Below, in pieces: positions 294 through 6,511 of a stretch of DNA of 64,000 nt. The DNA is from Niveispirillum irakense DSM 11586 (GTDB lineage: Bacteria > Pseudomonadota > Alphaproteobacteria > Azospirillales > Azospirillaceae). The notes beneath the pieces are model-generated. The model saw only the letters and a program-made list of their open reading frames with translations. It made no database searches and was not told where the DNA came from. Position 1 is the first letter of the stretch, and every line of letters starts with the position of its first letter. The position numbers and the translations under genes were made by a program. Location of the stretch: the NCBI RefSeq assembly GCF_000429645.1, contig NZ_AUCG01000016.1, positions 558,001 to 622,000 on the forward strand, in the 5' to 3' direction.

Positions 294-1457
294 TCAGAAC
301 AAATGGCCGGACCGTTCCGCCTTGGTGCGCAGATAGGCCTCGTTATGGCCATTGGCGGGGAAGATGTGCGGCACCCGCTCCACCACTTCCACCCCGCACC
401 GGGCAAGCTGTTCCATCTTGTCCGGGTTGTTGGTCATCAGCCGGACCTGGGAGAAGCCAAGCTGCTTCAGCATATGGGCAGCCGGCAGATAGACACGCTC
501 GTCAGCATCGAAGCCCAGAACGGTGTTGGCATCCACCGTATCCAGCCCGCCATCCTGCAGCTTATAGGCGCGCAGCTTGTTCATCAGGCCAATGCCGCGC
601 CCTTCCTGGGCCAGATACAGCACGATGCCGCTGCCGGCGGTGGAAACCTCCCGGATGGCGCCGCGAAGCTGGGGGCCGCAATCACAGCGGAGCGAGCCCA
701 GCAGATCACCGGTGAAACATTCCGAGTGCAGGCGGGCCAGCACCGGCTGCCCCGGCACCGGATCGCCAATGATGATGGCCAGATGCTCCGGCCCGCCATC
801 ACTGGGGCGGAAAGCGACGATGCGCGTGCGCTCCGCATCCTCCAGCGGCACAGCGGCCTCTGCCACCCGTGTCAGCGACCGGGCAGAGCGGCGGCGATAA
901 TCCACAATATCGGCGGCAGCCACCATCAGCAGGTCATGGCGGCGGGCGAAGACCCGCACTTCCCGATCCGCCGGCAGCGGCACCACCAGGGCTGCCGGCA
1001 GCAGGCGGGCGATCTTGGCCAGGATCGTGGCCGCCCCTTCCGCTGTCACGTCACCGGGCAGGGAAACCGCCCCCAGCCGCTCTGCCAGATCGGCACCGGT
1101 CAGGGATTTCAGCGGTCGGGTCGGGTCTGCCAGTTCCCGCACCAGTTCCAGCCCCAGGCCCTTGGGTGGGGACAGGCGCACCGGCTGATCGACCGGCATA
1201 TCCAGGCCCAGCGCTACCGCCCGCTGCCCGGTCACGATCAAAGACGGGGTTGCCCCGCCCAGCACGGTCAGATGGTCCAGCGATGCCGCCGTCACCGCCT
1301 CCGCCGCCAGGACCAGCAATGTGCCTTCCACCGCCGTGACCAGAACGGCCTCACCCCGGCGCAGATCGGCCAAGGCACGGTCTACGGCACGTTGGGCCGC
1401 CTGATCCGGCAGGGCATCGATATCAGCGGAGGCGTAATCCAGTGCCATATTATCCAT
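294..1457 (-). CDS. ribA: GTP cyclohydrolase II (RibA) with a degenerate N-terminal domain
   Basis: Opens the imidazole ring of GTP to give formate and the diaminopyrimidine precursor of riboflavin. Residues about 205-387 are the GCHII domain: HSEC, then RCDC, give the three zinc cysteines (247, 258, 260), followed by LAQEGRGIGL, a conserved RAYKLQD and LGFDADER, so the enzyme looks active. Residues 1-200 sit where bifunctional RibBA carries DHBP synthase, but the acidic DDExRExEGD signature of that enzyme is absent. The start chosen (MDNM) overlaps the stop of the upstream CDP-alcohol transferase gene by 8 bp; further ATGs at 1484 and 1448 are possible. Its neighbours are not riboflavin genes, which suggests that the GTP-derived pyrimidine feeds another product here. 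Confidence 0.93.
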   Translation of the reverse strand: MDNMALDYASADIDALPDQAAQRAVDRALADLRRGEAVLVTAVEGTLLVLAAEAVTAASLDHLTVLGGATPSLIVTGQRAVALGLDMPVDQPVRLSPPKGLGLELVRELADPTRPLKSLTGADLAERLGAVSLPGDVTAEGAATILAKIARLLPAALVVPLPADREVRVFARRHDLLMVAAADIVDYRRRSARSLTRVAEAAVPLEDAERTRIVAFRPSDGGPEHLAIIIGDPVPGQPVLARLHSECFTGDLLGSLRCDCGPQLRGAIREVSTAGSGIVLYLAQEGRGIGLMNKLRAYKLQDGGLDTVDANTVLGFDADERVYLPAAHMLKQLGFSQVRLMTNNPDKMEQLARCGVEVVERVPHIFPANGHNEAYLRTKAERSGHLF

Positions 1458-2208
1458 GTTCCGTTCCGTTGGCGCGGCCGCCATGGCGTATCAGCCAGAC
1501 GGTATCGGTGGTAAAGGAGAAAAGCAAAAGCGCAAGGGCTGCACCTGCCGCAACGCCGGTCAGCGGTGGTTCCATCCAGGGGCTGGCGCCGGCCGCCAGC
1601 ACGGCGACCTGCACAACGCAGATGGCCCGGCGCCGCTGGCTGAAGGGCAAGGGGCCGGCCAGCACCGGCCAGACCATCCCGGCCAGGATGAACAGGTGCC
1701 GCATGAGGCCCAAGCCCAGCACCCAAACCCCCGCTTCGCCCCACAGATAGAGCAGCAGCGAGAGAAGCAGGATCAGCAGCGCATCCAGTTCCATGTCGAA
1801 GCGCGCACCATAGGGGCTGCACATGCCCTGCCGCCGCGCGATCCAGCCATCCACCCCATCCAATGCCAGGGCCACCAGCGCGATAACGGCCAGCATCCAC
1901 GCCTGTTCCGCCGCCATGCCGGGGGCCAGCGGCAGGGCACCGCCCACCAGGGCGATCAGGCCGCCACGCAACAGGGTGATCCGGTTGGCCGTACCCCAGC
2001 CGCCATGGTTGAGATGCCCCGGCAATCCCATCCAGGCCAGGCCTGCGACCACACAGAAGGCGCCCAGCGCCGCCGCCGCATACCAGGCGGGCAGTTCCAT
2101 CATCCCGGCCAGGACCAGCGCACTGGCCACAACCAGGGGGGCTGCGACCAGCAGATGGGCGGAAACCTCAAGACGCAGGCGGGAAAGAGTGATGGGGGCA
2201 GCGGTCAT
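1450..2208 (-). CDS. CDP-alcohol phosphatidyltransferase family membrane protein
   Basis: A 252-residue integral membrane protein carrying the CDP-alcohol phosphotransferase signature DGx2ARx8-9Gx3Dx3D (DGVDGWIARR followed by the spaced Gly, Asp, Asp). Family members transfer a phosphoalcohol from a CDP-linked donor to a lipid or polyol. Several hydrophobic helices lie on both sides of the motif. The ATG at 2208 was chosen because the frame upstream has no hydrophobic or conserved content. It is translated just before ribA with an 8-bp overlap, so the two are probably co-transcribed and divergent from the dehydrogenase at 2407. It could be a PgsA-like phospholipid enzyme, but its position beside GTP cyclohydrolase, PTPS-like and glycosyltransferase genes makes a specialised acceptor possible. 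Confidence 0.85.
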   Translation of the reverse strand: MTAAPITLSRLRLEVSAHLLVAAPLVVASALVLAGMMELPAWYAAAALGAFCVVAGLAWMGLPGHLNHGGWGTANRITLLRGGLIALVGGALPLAPGMAAEQAWMLAVIALVALALDGVDGWIARRQGMCSPYGARFDMELDALLILLLSLLLYLWGEAGVWVLGLGLMRHLFILAGMVWPVLAGPLPFSQRRRAICVVQVAVLAAGASPWMEPPLTGVAAGAALALLLFSFTTDTVWLIRHGGRANGTEHG

Positions 2209-2406
2209 GATCTGGAAAGATTGGTCGTTCTGCCGGTTTGGCAAGGGTATGCAACAGACAGAAGAGAAGGCGCCGGAGGACCTATGGCATCCGTCCGGTT
2301 GCCATGCCACAGTGCCTGCGGGCAGCATTGCGGGACAAGTCTTCCGTTTCCCGCCGCCATTCCGGCATCCCGCCGCCTTCCCTGCCCCACGGATATCAGC
2401 CACCCC

Positions 2407-3402
2407 ATGTCTCTTATTGCCCGGTCCTTCTGGACACTCGCCCCCGGACGCGGTGCCGTCTGCCAGCAGGCGCTGACCGATCCCGGTCCCGATGCCGTGC
2501 TGGTACGGGCCCTGGCCAGCGGTATCAGCCGGGGCACCGAATCGCTGGTTTTCCATGGACAGGTACCGGGTGAACTGGCTGATATCATGGCCTGCCCGAT
2601 GCAGGAGGGGGCCTTTCCCGGCCCGGTGAAATATGGCTATTCCCTGGTGGCGCGGGTGGAGCGGGGGCCGGAAGGCCTGGCAGGTCGCCGGGTCTTCGTC
2701 CTGCACCCGCATCAGGACTGGGCCTTTGTGCCCGCCGATGCGTGCCGGCTGATCCCAAACAGCGTGCCGGATGAACGCGCCGTGCTGGCCGCGAATATGG
2801 AGACAGCGCTGAACCTGTTATGGGATGGCGGTGCTGCCCCCGGTCAGCGCATCGCCATTGTCGGCGGCGGCATTGTCGGCTGCCTTGCAGCCTATCTGGC
2901 CGCCCGCCTGCCCGGCGCGGAGGTGACACTGGTCGATCTGGCACCAGAGCGGGCGGACATCGCCCGGACACTGGGGGCCGGCTTCGCCCTGCCGGCGGCG
3001 GCGGCGCAGTCCCTGGCAGGGACTTGCGATCTGGTGATCCATTGCAGCGCCAGCGAGACCGGCCTTGCCACCGCCCTGTCCCTTGCCGGGACGGAGGCTA
3101 CCCTGGTGGAAGGTTCCTGGTATGGCACAAGGCCGGTGGCGGCCCCGCTGGGGGCGGGGTTCCACCCCAGGCGCCTGCGCCTTGTTTCTTCCCAGGTTGG
3201 CATGGTGTCGCCGGGCTTCCGCCCACGCTGGACCCACGCAAGACGGCTGGATAAGGCCCTGTCCCTGCTGGCCGATCCGGTCCTGGACAGTCTGCTGGGG
3301 CCACGCCTGACACTGGACGAGGTGCCCGACGCCATGATCAGCCTGGACCGGCTGCCATTTGGTTGTCCTGTCATCCGCTATGAGGCTATCAACAATCCCT
3401 GA
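2407..3402 (+). CDS. Medium-chain dehydrogenase/reductase lacking catalytic zinc ligands
   Basis: A 331-residue MDR-superfamily oxidoreductase. The Rossmann fold is clear (IVGGGIVGCLAA, with an acidic residue at the end of the next strand in LVDLAPERA). The N-terminal half reads SGISRGTES where zinc alcohol dehydrogenases have a Cys-Gly-x-Asp-x-His zinc motif, so the catalytic zinc cysteine is gone; the SGIS-GTE wording resembles BchC-type dehydrogenases. The ATG at 2407 is the first Met in frame after the divergent intergenic region shared with the 1450-2208 gene. It is the first of four plus-strand genes running to 5804. A redox step on a cluster intermediate is likely; the substrate is unknown. 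Confidence 0.82.
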   Translation: MSLIARSFWTLAPGRGAVCQQALTDPGPDAVLVRALASGISRGTESLVFHGQVPGELADIMACPMQEGAFPGPVKYGYSLVARVERGPEGLAGRRVFVLHPHQDWAFVPADACRLIPNSVPDERAVLAANMETALNLLWDGGAAPGQRIAIVGGGIVGCLAAYLAARLPGAEVTLVDLAPERADIARTLGAGFALPAAAAQSLAGTCDLVIHCSASETGLATALSLAGTEATLVEGSWYGTRPVAAPLGAGFHPRRLRLVSSQVGMVSPGFRPRWTHARRLDKALSLLADPVLDSLLGPRLTLDEVPDAMISLDRLPFGCPVIRYEAINNP

Positions 3403-3433
3403 TCTGAAAACCGTTCCGCCTTCGGGAGACGCC

Positions 3434-3847
3434 ATGTACGCCCTGACCGTTCGCGACCACATCATGATCGCCCATAGTTTCACCGGCGCCATCTTCGGCC
3501 CGGCGCAGAAGCTGCACGGCGCCACCTTCGTGGTCGATGCCGAGTTCCGCCGCACCAGCCTGTCCACCGACGGGCTGGTGGTGGATATCGGGGCCGCGGC
3601 GGAAATGCTGAAGCAGGTGCTGGCGCCGCTGAATTACACCAATCTGGACGAAGTCCCGGAACTGGCCGGCCGCAACACCACCACCGAATTCCTGGCCGGC
3701 GAGATCCATCGCCGGCTGGATAAAGCCATTGCCGGCGGCGCCCTGGGGGCCGATGGCGCAGCATTGGCATCGCTGAAAGTGTCGCTGCACGAATCGCACA
3801 CTGCCTGGGCCAGCTATGACGCCCCGCTGACCGGAGGGACGGCATGA
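3434..3847 (+). CDS. 6-pyruvoyl-tetrahydropterin synthase/QueD-like protein, catalytic residues lost
   Basis: A 137-residue protein with the PTPS (T-fold) architecture. Compared with E. coli QueD, the first two zinc histidines are kept (His14, His28) and the pterin-anchoring Glu (Glu120) is kept. The catalytic Cys is Ala24, the third zinc His is Ala30 (LHGAT instead of LHGHx), and the Asp-His pair is Asn67-Tyr68. It is therefore unlikely to run the normal 6-carboxy- or 6-pyruvoyl-tetrahydropterin reaction. ATG at 3434 follows a GGGAGA ribosome binding site. Its stop overlaps the next gene's start (ATGA), so it is translationally coupled to the glycosyltransferase. It may bind a pterin or pyrimidine made from the RibA product, or carry out altered chemistry. 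Confidence 0.85.
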   Translation: MYALTVRDHIMIAHSFTGAIFGPAQKLHGATFVVDAEFRRTSLSTDGLVVDIGAAAEMLKQVLAPLNYTNLDEVPELAGRNTTTEFLAGEIHRRLDKAIAGGALGADGAALASLKVSLHESHTAWASYDAPLTGGTA

Positions 3848-4935
3848 ACCGGCGCATCAACCGGCCTGTCCATATCATCTCCCCCGGCAGCATCGACCAG
3901 TTGACCGGCGGCTATGGCTATCTGCGCCGCCTGCGCGACGGGCTGCTGGCGCGGGGGGAAAAGGTCACGGTGCATGAGGTGCCGGGCCCCCATCCTTTCG
4001 TGGAAGAAGAGGCGCGGCTGGCCGCCGATGCGGTGCTGGCCACCATTCCCGATGGCGATGTGGTTCTGGTCGACGGGCTGGCTTTACCGGCTGCCGGCCA
4101 TGCCCTGTGGGTGGAGCGCTACCGGTTGCGGCAGGTGGCGCTGGTCCATCACCCGCTGCATCTTGAACATGGATTGACGGCGGAACAGGCGACCATCCTG
4201 CGCCGGCTGGAACGGGACAGTCTGGCCCAGGTGCGCCGGGTGATCGTGCCCAGCCGCGCCACCCGGGCCGGGGTGATGGATCTGGATGTGCCCGCCGGTC
4301 GCATCACCATCGCCAATCCCGGCACCGACCGCCAGGCCCCCGCCCCGGGCAGCGGCGGAACCGCCCCCGTGCTGCTGACCGTGGCGACATTGACCCCGCG
4401 CAAGGGCCATCTGGTGCTGGTGGAAGCCCTGGCCCGGCTGCACCACCTGCCCTGGTCCCTGGTGCTGGTCGGCAGTGATGATCGCCATCCCGGCCATGCC
4501 GCCGCATTGCGCACCGCCATAGCAGAGGCCGGGTTGGCTGACCGCGTGCGCCTGACGGGGGAATTGTCCGGCCCGGCGCTGGAGACGGAATGGCAGGGGG
4601 CAGACCTGTTCGTGCTGCCCTCCCTGCATGAAGGCTATGGGATGGTGGCGGCCGATGCCCTGGCGCGCGGCCTGCCGGTGGTGACCAGCGATGCCGGTGC
4701 TTTGGGCGAGTTCGTGCCGCCCGCCGCCGGTGCCCTGGTCCCGCCCGGCGATCCGGTGGCACTGGCCGCCGCATTGGAACCGCTGCTGACCGACCCCGCC
4801 GCCCGCAAGGCCGCGGAGCAAGCGGCACGAACGGCAGGGGCCAGTCTGCCAAGCTGGGACGATACGGTCGGCATCATCCGGTCCGCGCTGGCCGCCAGTG
4901 TCTCCCCCCTGCCCGAGATCGAGCGCATCGCATGA
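3844..4935 (+). CDS. Glycosyltransferase family 4 (GT-B fold)
   Basis: A 363-residue GT-B glycosyltransferase. The N-terminal Rossmann domain carries a glycine-rich TGGYGYLRRL segment. The C-terminal nucleotide-sugar domain has LTVATLTPRKGH followed by LPSLHEGYGMVAADALARG, the family 4 E-x7-E region with Asp in place of the second Glu. It moves a sugar from a nucleotide donor onto an acceptor and has no membrane segment, so it is probably cytosolic. The start overlaps the PTPS-like gene by ATGA and its own stop overlaps the methyltransferase by ATGA, so the three are one translation unit. The acceptor is unknown; context suggests a small molecule from this cluster rather than a cell-wall polymer. 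Confidence 0.88.
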   Translation: MNRRINRPVHIISPGSIDQLTGGYGYLRRLRDGLLARGEKVTVHEVPGPHPFVEEEARLAADAVLATIPDGDVVLVDGLALPAAGHALWVERYRLRQVALVHHPLHLEHGLTAEQATILRRLERDSLAQVRRVIVPSRATRAGVMDLDVPAGRITIANPGTDRQAPAPGSGGTAPVLLTVATLTPRKGHLVLVEALARLHHLPWSLVLVGSDDRHPGHAAALRTAIAEAGLADRVRLTGELSGPALETEWQGADLFVLPSLHEGYGMVAADALARGLPVVTSDAGALGEFVPPAAGALVPPGDPVALAAALEPLLTDPAARKAAEQAARTAGASLPSWDDTVGIIRSALAASVSPLPEIERIA

Positions 4936-5804
4936 GCGAGGGATTTGACGCCGGCTGGCTGCGCCTGCGGGAACCGCTGGATGCGGCGGCATTGGACAGG
5001 CCCCTGGCCCGGCAGTTCGCCCGGCTGCTGCCACCGGCGCCGAAACTGATGGATCTGGGCGCCGGCACGGGCAGCCATGTCCGCCTGCTCTGCCGCGACC
5101 TGGGCCAGCCGCGTCAGGATTGGACGCTTGTGGACCATGATCCCCGCCTGCTGGCGGTGGCACCGGCGGAACTGGCGGGCTGGGCCGGGGAACAGGGCTG
5201 GGGCACGACATGGGAAACCGGCGCCTGCCATATCCAGGCGCCTGGCCTGGAAATCGGCGTCACCCTGCGCACCCTTGATCTGGCGGCAGGGCTGGAGGGG
5301 CTGGATCTGTCCCGCTGCGACGGCATCACGGCCAAGGCCCTGTTCGACCTTGTATCCGCCGACTGGATGGCCGCTTTTGCCACTGCGCTTACGGCAGCCG
5401 GCCATCCGCCCCTTTATGCCAGCCTGAATGTCGATGGCAGGGTGGCCTTCAGCCTGCCCGATCCGGATGATGATTTCGTGCTTGGCCTTTTCCATGCCCA
5501 TATGACGCGCGATAAGGGGCTTGGCCCTGCGCTGGGGCCGGCGATTGCCACCGCGATGCCGGACATTCTGGCGCGGAACGGTTATAAGGTGGAAACGGCT
5601 TCATCAGACTGGCAGATCGGCCCGGAACATCCCGGCGCCTATCTGGCCCTGCTGGACGGGTATGAACAGGCGGCGCGGGAGCAGGAACCAGCGGCAGCGG
5701 CACAGATCGCCGCCTGGGGACAGCGCCGGCGGGCGCTTGCGGGACGCCAAGACAGCGGGTTGATGGTGGGCCATGTCGATCTTCTGGCCTGGCGCCAGGG
5801 CTGA
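4932..5804 (+). CDS. Class I SAM-dependent methyltransferase
   Basis: A 290-residue methyltransferase. Motif I is LMDLGAGTGSHVRLL at about residues 38-52, followed by an acidic loop (LVDHDPRLL) typical of SAM ribose binding. There are no transmembrane segments. It is the last of the ATGA-coupled genes from 3434, so it probably methylates the compound handled by the PTPS-like, dehydrogenase and glycosyltransferase proteins. The C-terminal third (about residues 190-290) has no motif I can name and may set substrate choice. Assignment to the superfamily is firm; the substrate is unknown. Confidence 0.86.
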   Translation: MSEGFDAGWLRLREPLDAAALDRPLARQFARLLPPAPKLMDLGAGTGSHVRLLCRDLGQPRQDWTLVDHDPRLLAVAPAELAGWAGEQGWGTTWETGACHIQAPGLEIGVTLRTLDLAAGLEGLDLSRCDGITAKALFDLVSADWMAAFATALTAAGHPPLYASLNVDGRVAFSLPDPDDDFVLGLFHAHMTRDKGLGPALGPAIATAMPDILARNGYKVETASSDWQIGPEHPGAYLALLDGYEQAAREQEPAAAAQIAAWGQRRRALAGRQDSGLMVGHVDLLAWRQG

Positions 5805-5836: not shown

Positions 5837-6511
5837 ATGACCGCAAAGCATATCCTTCTGGTCGATGATGATGCGGCCCTGCGCCCGCTGATCGCCGAGC
5901 AGCTTACAGCCGCTGGCATGCAGGTGACAGAAGCCGCCTCCATGGCCGAAGGGCTGGAGAAGGGGCTGCACCAGGGCCCGTTCGATGCCATGCTGCTGAA
6001 TAGCGATCTGCCGGATGGCGATGGCGGGCACCTGTGCCGGCATCTGCGGGCTCAGGGCATCACCTGCCCCATCATCCTGCTGACCGCCCCCGGCGGCCCC
6101 GCCCCCGCCCTGGCGGAAAGTGGCGCAACCGGCCATATCGCCAAGCCGTTCCGGCTGGCGATGCTGCTGGCACGGCTGCGTGATCATCTGCGTCAGGGGC
6201 AGGCGGCAACAGACCAGGGGCTGGATCTAGGGCCCTACCGCTTCCATCCCGGTGCCAAGCAGCTTCTGGCCGGGACACAAAAAATCCGCCTGACGGAAAA
6301 GGAAACCCAGATCCTGCGCCATCTGCACGGTGCCGGCGGGCAATGCGTGCCGCGCGATGCGCTGCTGGATGCCGTCTGGGGCTATGCGGACGGCATCACC
6401 ACCCATACGCTGGAAACCCATATTTACCGCCTGCGCCGCAAGATTGAACCCGACCCCGCACAGGCCAGCCTGCTGGTGACGGAACCTGGAGGCTATCGGC
6501 TGGTTGTTTGA
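5837..6511 (+). CDS. OmpR-type response regulator with Asn at the phosphorylation site
   Basis: A 224-residue receiver plus winged-helix regulator. The receiver (1-120) keeps the acidic cluster (Asp10-12), Thr84 and the Lys104-Pro105 pair, but the phosphoacceptor in the LLDxxLP context is Asn55 (LLNSDLP; codon aat). The C-terminal DNA-binding domain (about 130-224) is intact: TEKETQILRHL, then THTLETHIYRLRRKIE and a PGGYRLV end. It therefore probably works without normal aspartyl phosphorylation, through protein contacts, a ligand, or as a constitutively locked form. No sensor kinase gene is adjacent. It lies 32 bp after the methyltransferase and could be read through from the 2407-5804 operon. 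Confidence 0.88.
   Translation: MTAKHILLVDDDAALRPLIAEQLTAAGMQVTEAASMAEGLEKGLHQGPFDAMLLNSDLPDGDGGHLCRHLRAQGITCPIILLTAPGGPAPALAESGATGHIAKPFRLAMLLARLRDHLRQGQAATDQGLDLGPYRFHPGAKQLLAGTQKIRLTEKETQILRHLHGAGGQCVPRDALLDAVWGYADGITTHTLETHIYRLRRKIEPDPAQASLLVTEPGGYRLVV

Follow-up and report, generated by a model that had tools for sequence, protein, structure and literature searches.

Of the proteins with solved structures, the closest to the one at the center of this report is SCO6650 of Streptomyces coelicolor, which is reportedly zinc-free and without activity as a 6-pyruvoyltetrahydropterin synthase (PTPS); near it lies SCO6655, a GTP cyclohydrolase II (GCH II) that reportedly makes the formyl-pyrimidine. 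We know of no pathway or product for this pair of proteins. Here, we analyze a 64-kb stretch of DNA (C2:558001-622000, hereafter the window) from the 5.45 Mb genome of Niveispirillum irakense DSM 11586, in which a GCH II gene stands beside that of a PTPS-like protein which, by its signature, belongs to PTPS-IV, a named subfamily of COG0720. In its passage on this subfamily, a 2016 review assigns PTPS-IV to coenzyme F420 synthesis, citing unpublished work (PMC5041015), and the corresponding part of a 2017 network paper gives both the FGPAQ signature and a genomic neighborhood with PF00925 and RibD_C (PMC5445326). GTP cyclohydrolase I / FolE2 is the name given to PF00925 there; since PF00925 is GCH II, the reported link of PTPS-IV to FolE2 looks like a slip of labeling. 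An earlier note on this DNA, made from the sequence alone, had proposed an undescribed pathway: among open-licence PMC papers we indeed found none that describes the cluster, but the PTPS-IV neighborhood itself was already in print.

Our reading, which we hold to be somewhat the more probable, is that the core of a PTPS-IV biosynthetic cluster lies in the window, and that this widespread cluster branches from the first steps of riboflavin synthesis; that its genes serve a joint pathway fed by the GCH II product is a conclusion in which we have great confidence. Evidence for this view comes from the co-occurrence of the genes. Two samples were searched, one of 82 genomes (the order sample, all of them from the window's own family), and the other of 385 genomes of the Alphaproteobacteria (the class sample), with thresholds in the latter of E 1e-20 for the dehydrogenase and E 1e-8 for the PTPS protein. 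PTPS-IV relatives are present in 23/82 genomes of the family. In the class sample, the dehydrogenase and the PTPS protein each occur in 45 genomes, and these are the identical 45; the two genes are adjacent on the same strand in 43 of them, with gaps of 1-129 bp, and the two exceptions involve a split over two contigs (G116) and opposite strands (G312). Wide neighborhoods were then compared at 60 loci from 59 of the 64 distinct PTPS-IV genomes (23 + 45 with four shared; G053, G078, G080, G133, and G339 were left out). The dehydrogenase and PTPS genes were each found at 59 of these loci, a glycosyltransferase at 57, a methyltransferase at 51, RibD_C at 36, GCH II at 25, and the CDP-alcohol transferase, counted by its motif, at 21; a looser count of 25 for the latter had taken in FkbM and long spurious open reading frames. 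A chance neighborhood is ruled out by co-occurrence so far above chance, both for the dehydrogenase and PTPS genes and for the CDP-alcohol transferase described below.

The cluster is by no means confined to close relatives of Niveispirillum, a point that the earlier note had left to be checked. A scan of named species genomes confirmed at least 587 PTPS-IV relatives among 594 candidate stretches; the best 80 of these, picked by PTPS similarity, are distributed over four phyla (by record title, Pseudomonadota 48, Actinomycetota 23, Gemmatimonadota 7, and Acidobacteriota 2). The PTPS gene is present at all 80 loci by construction; the dehydrogenase accompanies it at 80, a glycosyltransferase at 79, a methyltransferase at 71, the CDP-alcohol motif at 59, and RibD_C at 48, with LPG_synthase_TM at 37, a creatininase at 34, GCH II at 29, and FkbM at 23 (families checked on examples). 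Even genomes of 1.4-1.6 Mb (G241, G338, and G415) retain the set, together with creatininase, RibD_C, and GCH II. A PTPS-IV relative is also carried by 20 of 72,556 plasmid records, such as the large plasmids NZ_CP023738.1 and NZ_CP020371.1, and a plasmid of Methylosinus trichosporium OB3b bears the cluster. All four of the plasmid loci viewed contain the dehydrogenase together with a gene at the methyltransferase position (annotated in the orthologues as a class I S-adenosylmethionine (SAM)-dependent methyltransferase); the glycosyltransferase is present in three, RibD in three, the CDP-alcohol transferase in two, and GCH II, along with a creatininase, in one. This location on large plasmids is consistent with horizontal spread; no viral relatives were confirmed. 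The pathway is real, widespread, and biochemically unsolved; it is known in part, as a gene family, and none of the papers that we found describes its product.

The PTPS-IV protein of the window has retained the signature of its subfamily and lost the residues of the catalytic ones. It reads FGPAQ, FGPA occurring in 116 of the 118 aligned sequences and HGAT in all of them. No cysteine is found anywhere in it, and HGA replaces HGH, the third zinc histidine having become an alanine. The residue four positions before HGA is alanine in 118/118 sequences, and the first position of QxxHGA holds glutamine in 117 and arginine in one. The protein thus reads AxxxHGA against the CxxxHGH of QueD (PTPS-I) and QxxHGA against the ExxHGH of the folate enzyme PTPS-III, and it lacks the CxxxxxHGH of PTPS-II, the enzyme of tetrahydrobiopterin (BH4) synthesis. 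Glu120, which aligns with the substrate glutamate of QueD, is conserved. Since MAFFT places the QueD cysteine within a gapped stretch, its loss is argued from the motif spacing and the cysteine-free window protein; some cysteine lies upstream of HGA in 15/118 PTPS-IV sequences. With no cysteine and HGA instead of HGH, the protein cannot, to judge from its residues, perform PTPS or QueD chemistry.

A second line of evidence comes from the CDP-alcohol phosphatidyltransferase, in which the motif DGxxARx8Gx3Dx3D is present as DGVDGWIARRQGMCSPYGARFDMELD. Its family (alignment A3) was detected in 24/385 class genomes, of which 23 are PTPS-positive; that is, in 23/45 genomes with PTPS-IV and 1/340 without it, the exception (G207) being a 74% complete assembly. 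The gene lies within 8 kb of the PTPS gene in 16 of these 23 genomes and is unlinked in the other seven, and so it tracks PTPS-IV even where the two are separated. Within the window's own family, it stands beside a window-type GCH II in 9/12 PTPS-positive and 1/12 PTPS-negative genomes (p 0.003); 5 of the 29 loci (L175-L178 and L180) were dropped from this comparison as having other GCH II types, and one of the three PTPS-positive genomes without it (G055) is cut by a contig end. The conserved joint pathway from the GCH II product that the earlier note had envisaged is borne out by this association and by that of the dehydrogenase. In NCBIfam, PgsA and archaetidylinositol-phosphate synthase are the top matches of the transferase, each scoring far under its cut-off.

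The GCH II of the window has the E. coli enzyme (2bz0, E 4.6e-58) as its best solved match and keeps the zinc ligands Cys54, Cys65, and Cys67 as well as Tyr105 and Arg128 (CCCYR, E. coli numbering), and PF00926, the RibB-like half, gives only a sub-threshold match. (In the alignment, the L030 match is a 24-residue fragment and is shown as gaps.) The genome has one other GCH II homologue, on contig C14 (L029:4655-5866), in which RibB and a GCH II-like domain are fused in the RibBX arrangement; the latter domain carries Asp, His, and Pro where the zinc cysteines would be and a gap at Tyr105, the arginine being kept, and the genes on either side, identified by eye, look like those for riboflavin synthase and lumazine synthase/NusB. 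The GCH II-like domain of RibBX is inactive in Aeromonas and Shewanella, according to the part of a study that concerns it (PMC10012899). By its residues, then, the window gene is the only intact copy of the two found and must also supply riboflavin synthesis. Since the C14 domain is degenerate and sits in a riboflavin operon, and since window-type GCH II is also present in PTPS-negative relatives, the most probable role of the window gene is that of the riboflavin GCH II, which the cluster shares. The same two observations rule out an extra, pathway-only ribA in this genome. This reverses the earlier view of the gene as an additional copy: the homologue that might have been a separate ribBA is a RibB with a dead domain, and, counting intact copies, this ribA is the only one found in the genome, which is half of a condition that the note had set as refuting its proposal. 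The remark that no riboflavin gene is nearby has to be qualified, GCH II being itself such a gene.

A further partner, a stand-alone RibD_C reductase, has its gene some 48 kb ahead of the window (C2:508926-509558), so that of the published pair of neighbors (PF00925 and PF01872) the former is within the window and the latter outside it, beyond the sight of the earlier note. A second RibD_C match (E 1e-33 or better) is present in 21/23 PTPS-positive and 0/59 PTPS-negative genomes of the family; of the two PTPS-positive genomes without one, G056 has a single match of stand-alone size and G055 a single match. Where GCH II or RibD_C is not adjacent to the cluster, as is the case for RibD_C in the window's genus, their membership is argued from co-occurrence. 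Among solved structures, the RibD_C partners resemble archaeal-type reductases more than bacterial RibD: the best matches of the N. irakense protein are 5xv5 (E 4.8e-21) and 6p8c, a 2,5-diamino-6-ribosylamino-pyrimidinone reductase (E 2.4e-19), with RibD 2b3z at 1.1e-11. The scores on TIGR01508, the equivalog for the archaeal-type reductase (Rib7/ArfC), were 103.6 and 117.4 bits, below its cut-off of 186.45.

Table 1. Features of the PTPS-IV cluster in the window (positions counted from its first nucleotide)
Feature	Position	Strand	Evidence
GTP cyclohydrolase II (RibA type, RibB-like N-terminal half degenerate)	294..1484	-	PF00925 E 4.1e-59
CDP-alcohol phosphatidyltransferase	1450..2208	-	PF01066 E 1.1e-13; motif DGVDGWIARR...GARFDMELD intact
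Divergent intergenic region, 198 bp, separating two transcription units	2209..2406		coordinates
Medium-chain dehydrogenase, BchC-like	2407..3402	+	PF00107 E 8.8e-8
PTPS-IV subfamily protein	3434..3847	+	PF01242 E 9.4e-23; signature FGPAQ...HGAT
GT4-type glycosyltransferase	3844..4935	+	PF00534 E 2.8e-30
Class I SAM-dependent methyltransferase	4932..5804	+	Methyltransf_12/25 below curated cut-off; counterpart L212:10445-11257 above cut-off

The arrangement of the six genes (Table 1) is as it had first been described, coordinates and family matches agreeing: a gap of 31 bp separates the dehydrogenase and PTPS genes, and ATGA marks the PTPS/GT4 and GT4/methyltransferase junctions. The transferase and cyclohydrolase genes overlap by 35 bp. 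The dehydrogenase has an invariant SGxSRGTE-type stretch, and over 119 sequences none of the columns with conservation of at least 93% holds a cysteine; it scores 35.8 bits on the BchC model, far under the cut-off of 291, and gives weak matches to solved structures (best E 6.3e-7), a good number of which are polyol dehydrogenases. The glycosyltransferase is closest in solved structure to 6kih (E 2.8e-20) and to 7qsg, an inositol-3-phosphate glycosyltransferase (E 5.5e-14). No Rfam family reached its gathering score in the window, and none matched in 8 of 10 intended loci; for these, a riboswitch link was rejected. Directly past the methyltransferase gene, at 5837-6511, is a response regulator gene, a relative of which lies near the cluster in 18/60 loci, the window included. 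An MdoH-like glucosyltransferase group (L281, L287, and others) occurs in 11/60 and 19/80 loci, often divergent to the dehydrogenase, and cytochrome b561-like and YceI-like genes (L115, L139, and others) are near the cluster in 10/60 and 12/60 loci, respectively, as group-level matches.

From the enzyme families we infer a scheme in which each chemical step, the order of the steps, and the product are provisional. GCH II, an enzyme that riboflavin synthesis also uses here, would form 2,5-diamino-6-ribosylamino-4(3H)-pyrimidinone 5'-phosphate, and the stand-alone RibD_C (Rib7-like) encoded elsewhere in the genome would reduce its ribosyl moiety to ribityl without a deamination of the RibD type; that RibD_C acts before deamination is a reasonably probable part of the scheme. 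The dehydrogenase might then oxidize one hydroxyl group on the ribityl chain, perhaps that at C2', to give an Amadori-type ketone open to attack by the 5-amino group. PTPS-IV, having kept the pterin-anchoring glutamate and lost the zinc and cysteine chemistry, could bind the 2-amino-4-oxopyrimidine and aid ring closure; the formation of a pterin ring is tentative, and we would put it at a little under even. The GT4 enzyme would glycosylate and the methyltransferase methylate the product. Where the CDP-alcohol phosphatidyltransferase is present, it may join the 5'-phosphate to a lipid, a link that is possible in those species without being the better bet, and in other species the flippase-like membrane protein LPG_synthase_TM may move the lipid-linked product. 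The proposed product is a ribityl-diaminopyrimidine or pterin that would plausibly be glycosylated and methylated and, in some cases, lipid-linked.

Several observations count against this scheme. Fewer than half of the loci have GCH II next to the other genes (25/60 and 29/80). In the window's genus, RibD_C is unlinked, its neighborhood is not conserved, and no further pathway genes were recognized there; in addition, NCBIfam slightly favors bacterial RibD (123.9 bits) over the archaeal reductase (117.4) for the alphaproteobacterial RibD_C of L113, neither score reaching its cut-off. The best solved matches of the CDP-alcohol transferase profile are choline/ethanolamine phosphotransferases (E 3e-7), for which an alcohol phosphate is not the substrate, and this transferase is absent from 22/45 PTPS-IV genomes, so that a lipid linkage cannot be universal. 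The creatininases give evidence on both sides. In favor of the scheme is a pattern in the Actinomycetota: of the 14 clusters there that contain GCH II, nine have Met, His, or Gln instead of Tyr105, and a creatininase is present in 9/9 of these and in 0/5 of those that keep the tyrosine (p 0.0005), in a test that was post hoc, on related species, and with one Tyr-type contig of only 6.5 kb. This pattern fits a Tyr105-less GCH II that would yield a formyl-pyrimidine from which the creatininase would remove the formyl group. Against it, creatininase is also found, over all taxa, in 19/45 Tyr-type clusters, and as a general partner of Tyr105-less GCH II it was rejected, since the rule holds at the 14 actinobacterial loci and fails in Proteobacteria, where Tyr-type clusters carry it. 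The creatininases score 34.4 bits (L242) or are unlisted (L235) on the ArfB model NF033501, whose cut-off is 180, and they score better on MftE; with scores so far below cut-off, the deformylase role is only presumptive.

The same genes could also make a glycosylated and methylated pterin or pyrimidine that is soluble and exported, the transferase and the flippase-like protein then serving another role or acting in some species only. The genomes without the transferase favor this alternative, as do loci whose core is limited to the dehydrogenase, PTPS, methyltransferase, and RibD genes; the near confinement of the transferase family to PTPS-IV genomes and the overlap of its gene with that of GCH II in the window do not, and we regard it as rather unlikely while giving it some weight. 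More radically, given that GCH II and RibD_C are riboflavin-type enzymes and that PTPS-IV has lost the known catalytic residues, the product might be a modified flavin or lumazine cofactor and not a pterin, with PTPS-IV as a binding or chaperone protein. This we think improbable, since neither lumazine synthase nor riboflavin synthase is one of the groups that commonly recur at the examined loci, and the 2-amino group would be left untouched by a reductase that has no deaminase fused to it.

Two further alternatives concern the functions to which PTPS-IV has previously been attributed. The synthesis of F420 uses a riboflavin precursor. An F420 role would accord with the PF00925 and RibD_C neighborhood given in the PTPS-IV part of the network paper (PMC5445326) and with an FbiC-like open reading frame of 989 amino acids in the N. 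irakense genome (C10:134134-135177, CofH match E 6.5e-153); this organism probably does make F420 or Fo. Yet CofH, which is above cut-off in 60/385 class genomes, occurs in 9/45 PTPS-IV genomes (N. irakense among them) where 7.0 are expected (Fisher p 0.38), and 36 have PTPS-IV without it. The two are therefore not associated in the Alphaproteobacteria, and we consider service to F420 synthesis very improbable. As to the PTPS-like protein being an ordinary QueD, a PTPS-III in place of FolB, or a BH4 enzyme of the PTPS-II type, with incidental neighbors, it is the sole PTPS-family match in its genome and databases annotate its orthologues as 6-carboxytetrahydropterin synthase; nonetheless, the residues described above are against all three, FolB is present in the same genome (E 7.3e-19), and QueC is represented there by two weak partial matches (best E 1.8e-4), no full-length QueC being found. 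In the family sample, moreover, a strong QueC is rarer with PTPS-IV (6/23) than without it (47/59). The QueD, folate, and BH4 roles are ruled out by these active-site residues and partner genes, and we attach almost no credence to them. Since there is no full-length QueC and no PTPS besides PTPS-IV, the organism and most of the sampled members of its genus probably lack de novo queuosine synthesis.

If our reading of the window as the core of a PTPS-IV cluster is correct, it has consequences for both annotation and biochemistry. PTPS-IV genes are common, with at least 587 relatives, yet they are annotated as queuosine enzymes despite missing that active site, and their attribution to F420 is argued against in the Alphaproteobacteria. 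Tying them to GCH II, RibD_C, the dehydrogenase, the GT4 enzyme, the methyltransferase, and the CDP-alcohol transferase gives a concrete and testable pathway that would suggest a GTP-derived metabolite not known before, perhaps a lipid. In this genome, moreover, the only riboflavin GCH II to have stayed intact supplies a second pathway or is, at the least, linked to it genetically. It is a decidedly speculative and unlikely extension of this view that hundreds of species in at least four phyla make a membrane-anchored glycolipid in which PTPS-IV has turned the first riboflavin intermediate into a ribityl-pterin or diaminopyrimidine headgroup; were it true, GTP would be the source of a lipid cofactor or pigment of a kind not described before.

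Among known systems, the window PTPS comes closest in solved structure to SCO6650 (3d7j), its only such match at E 0.01 or better (E 1.4e-45). The cluster shares with the PTPS-IV of COG0720 the FGPAQ signature and the PF00925 and RibD_C neighborhood; the dehydrogenase, GT4, methyltransferase, CDP-alcohol transferase, creatininase, and flippase-like partners are not in the PTPS-IV passages of the two publications (PMC5041015, PMC5445326). The pairing of a CDP-alcohol transferase with a GT4 enzyme recalls the assembly of phosphatidylinositol phosphate and phosphatidylinositol glycosides, by analogy with which the two might be a headgroup and glycosylation pair, but no inositol gene was identified here. 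A similar partial likeness exists to the archaeal riboflavin and F420 steps catalyzed by ArfA, ArfB, and ArfC, where a cyclohydrolase, a creatininase-family protein, and a reductase act before deamination, as is proposed for the actinobacterial versions of the cluster; in contrast, the cyclohydrolase here is GCH II, the creatininase is under the ArfB cut-off, and neither a deaminase nor lumazine synthase is a common partner. The correspondence with the RibBX systems, as these appear in the relevant part of PMC10012899, extends both to a RibB with a zinc-less GCH II-like domain in the riboflavin operon and to a separate intact RibA; what distinguishes N. irakense is that here this separate RibA gene is joined to a PTPS-IV cluster.

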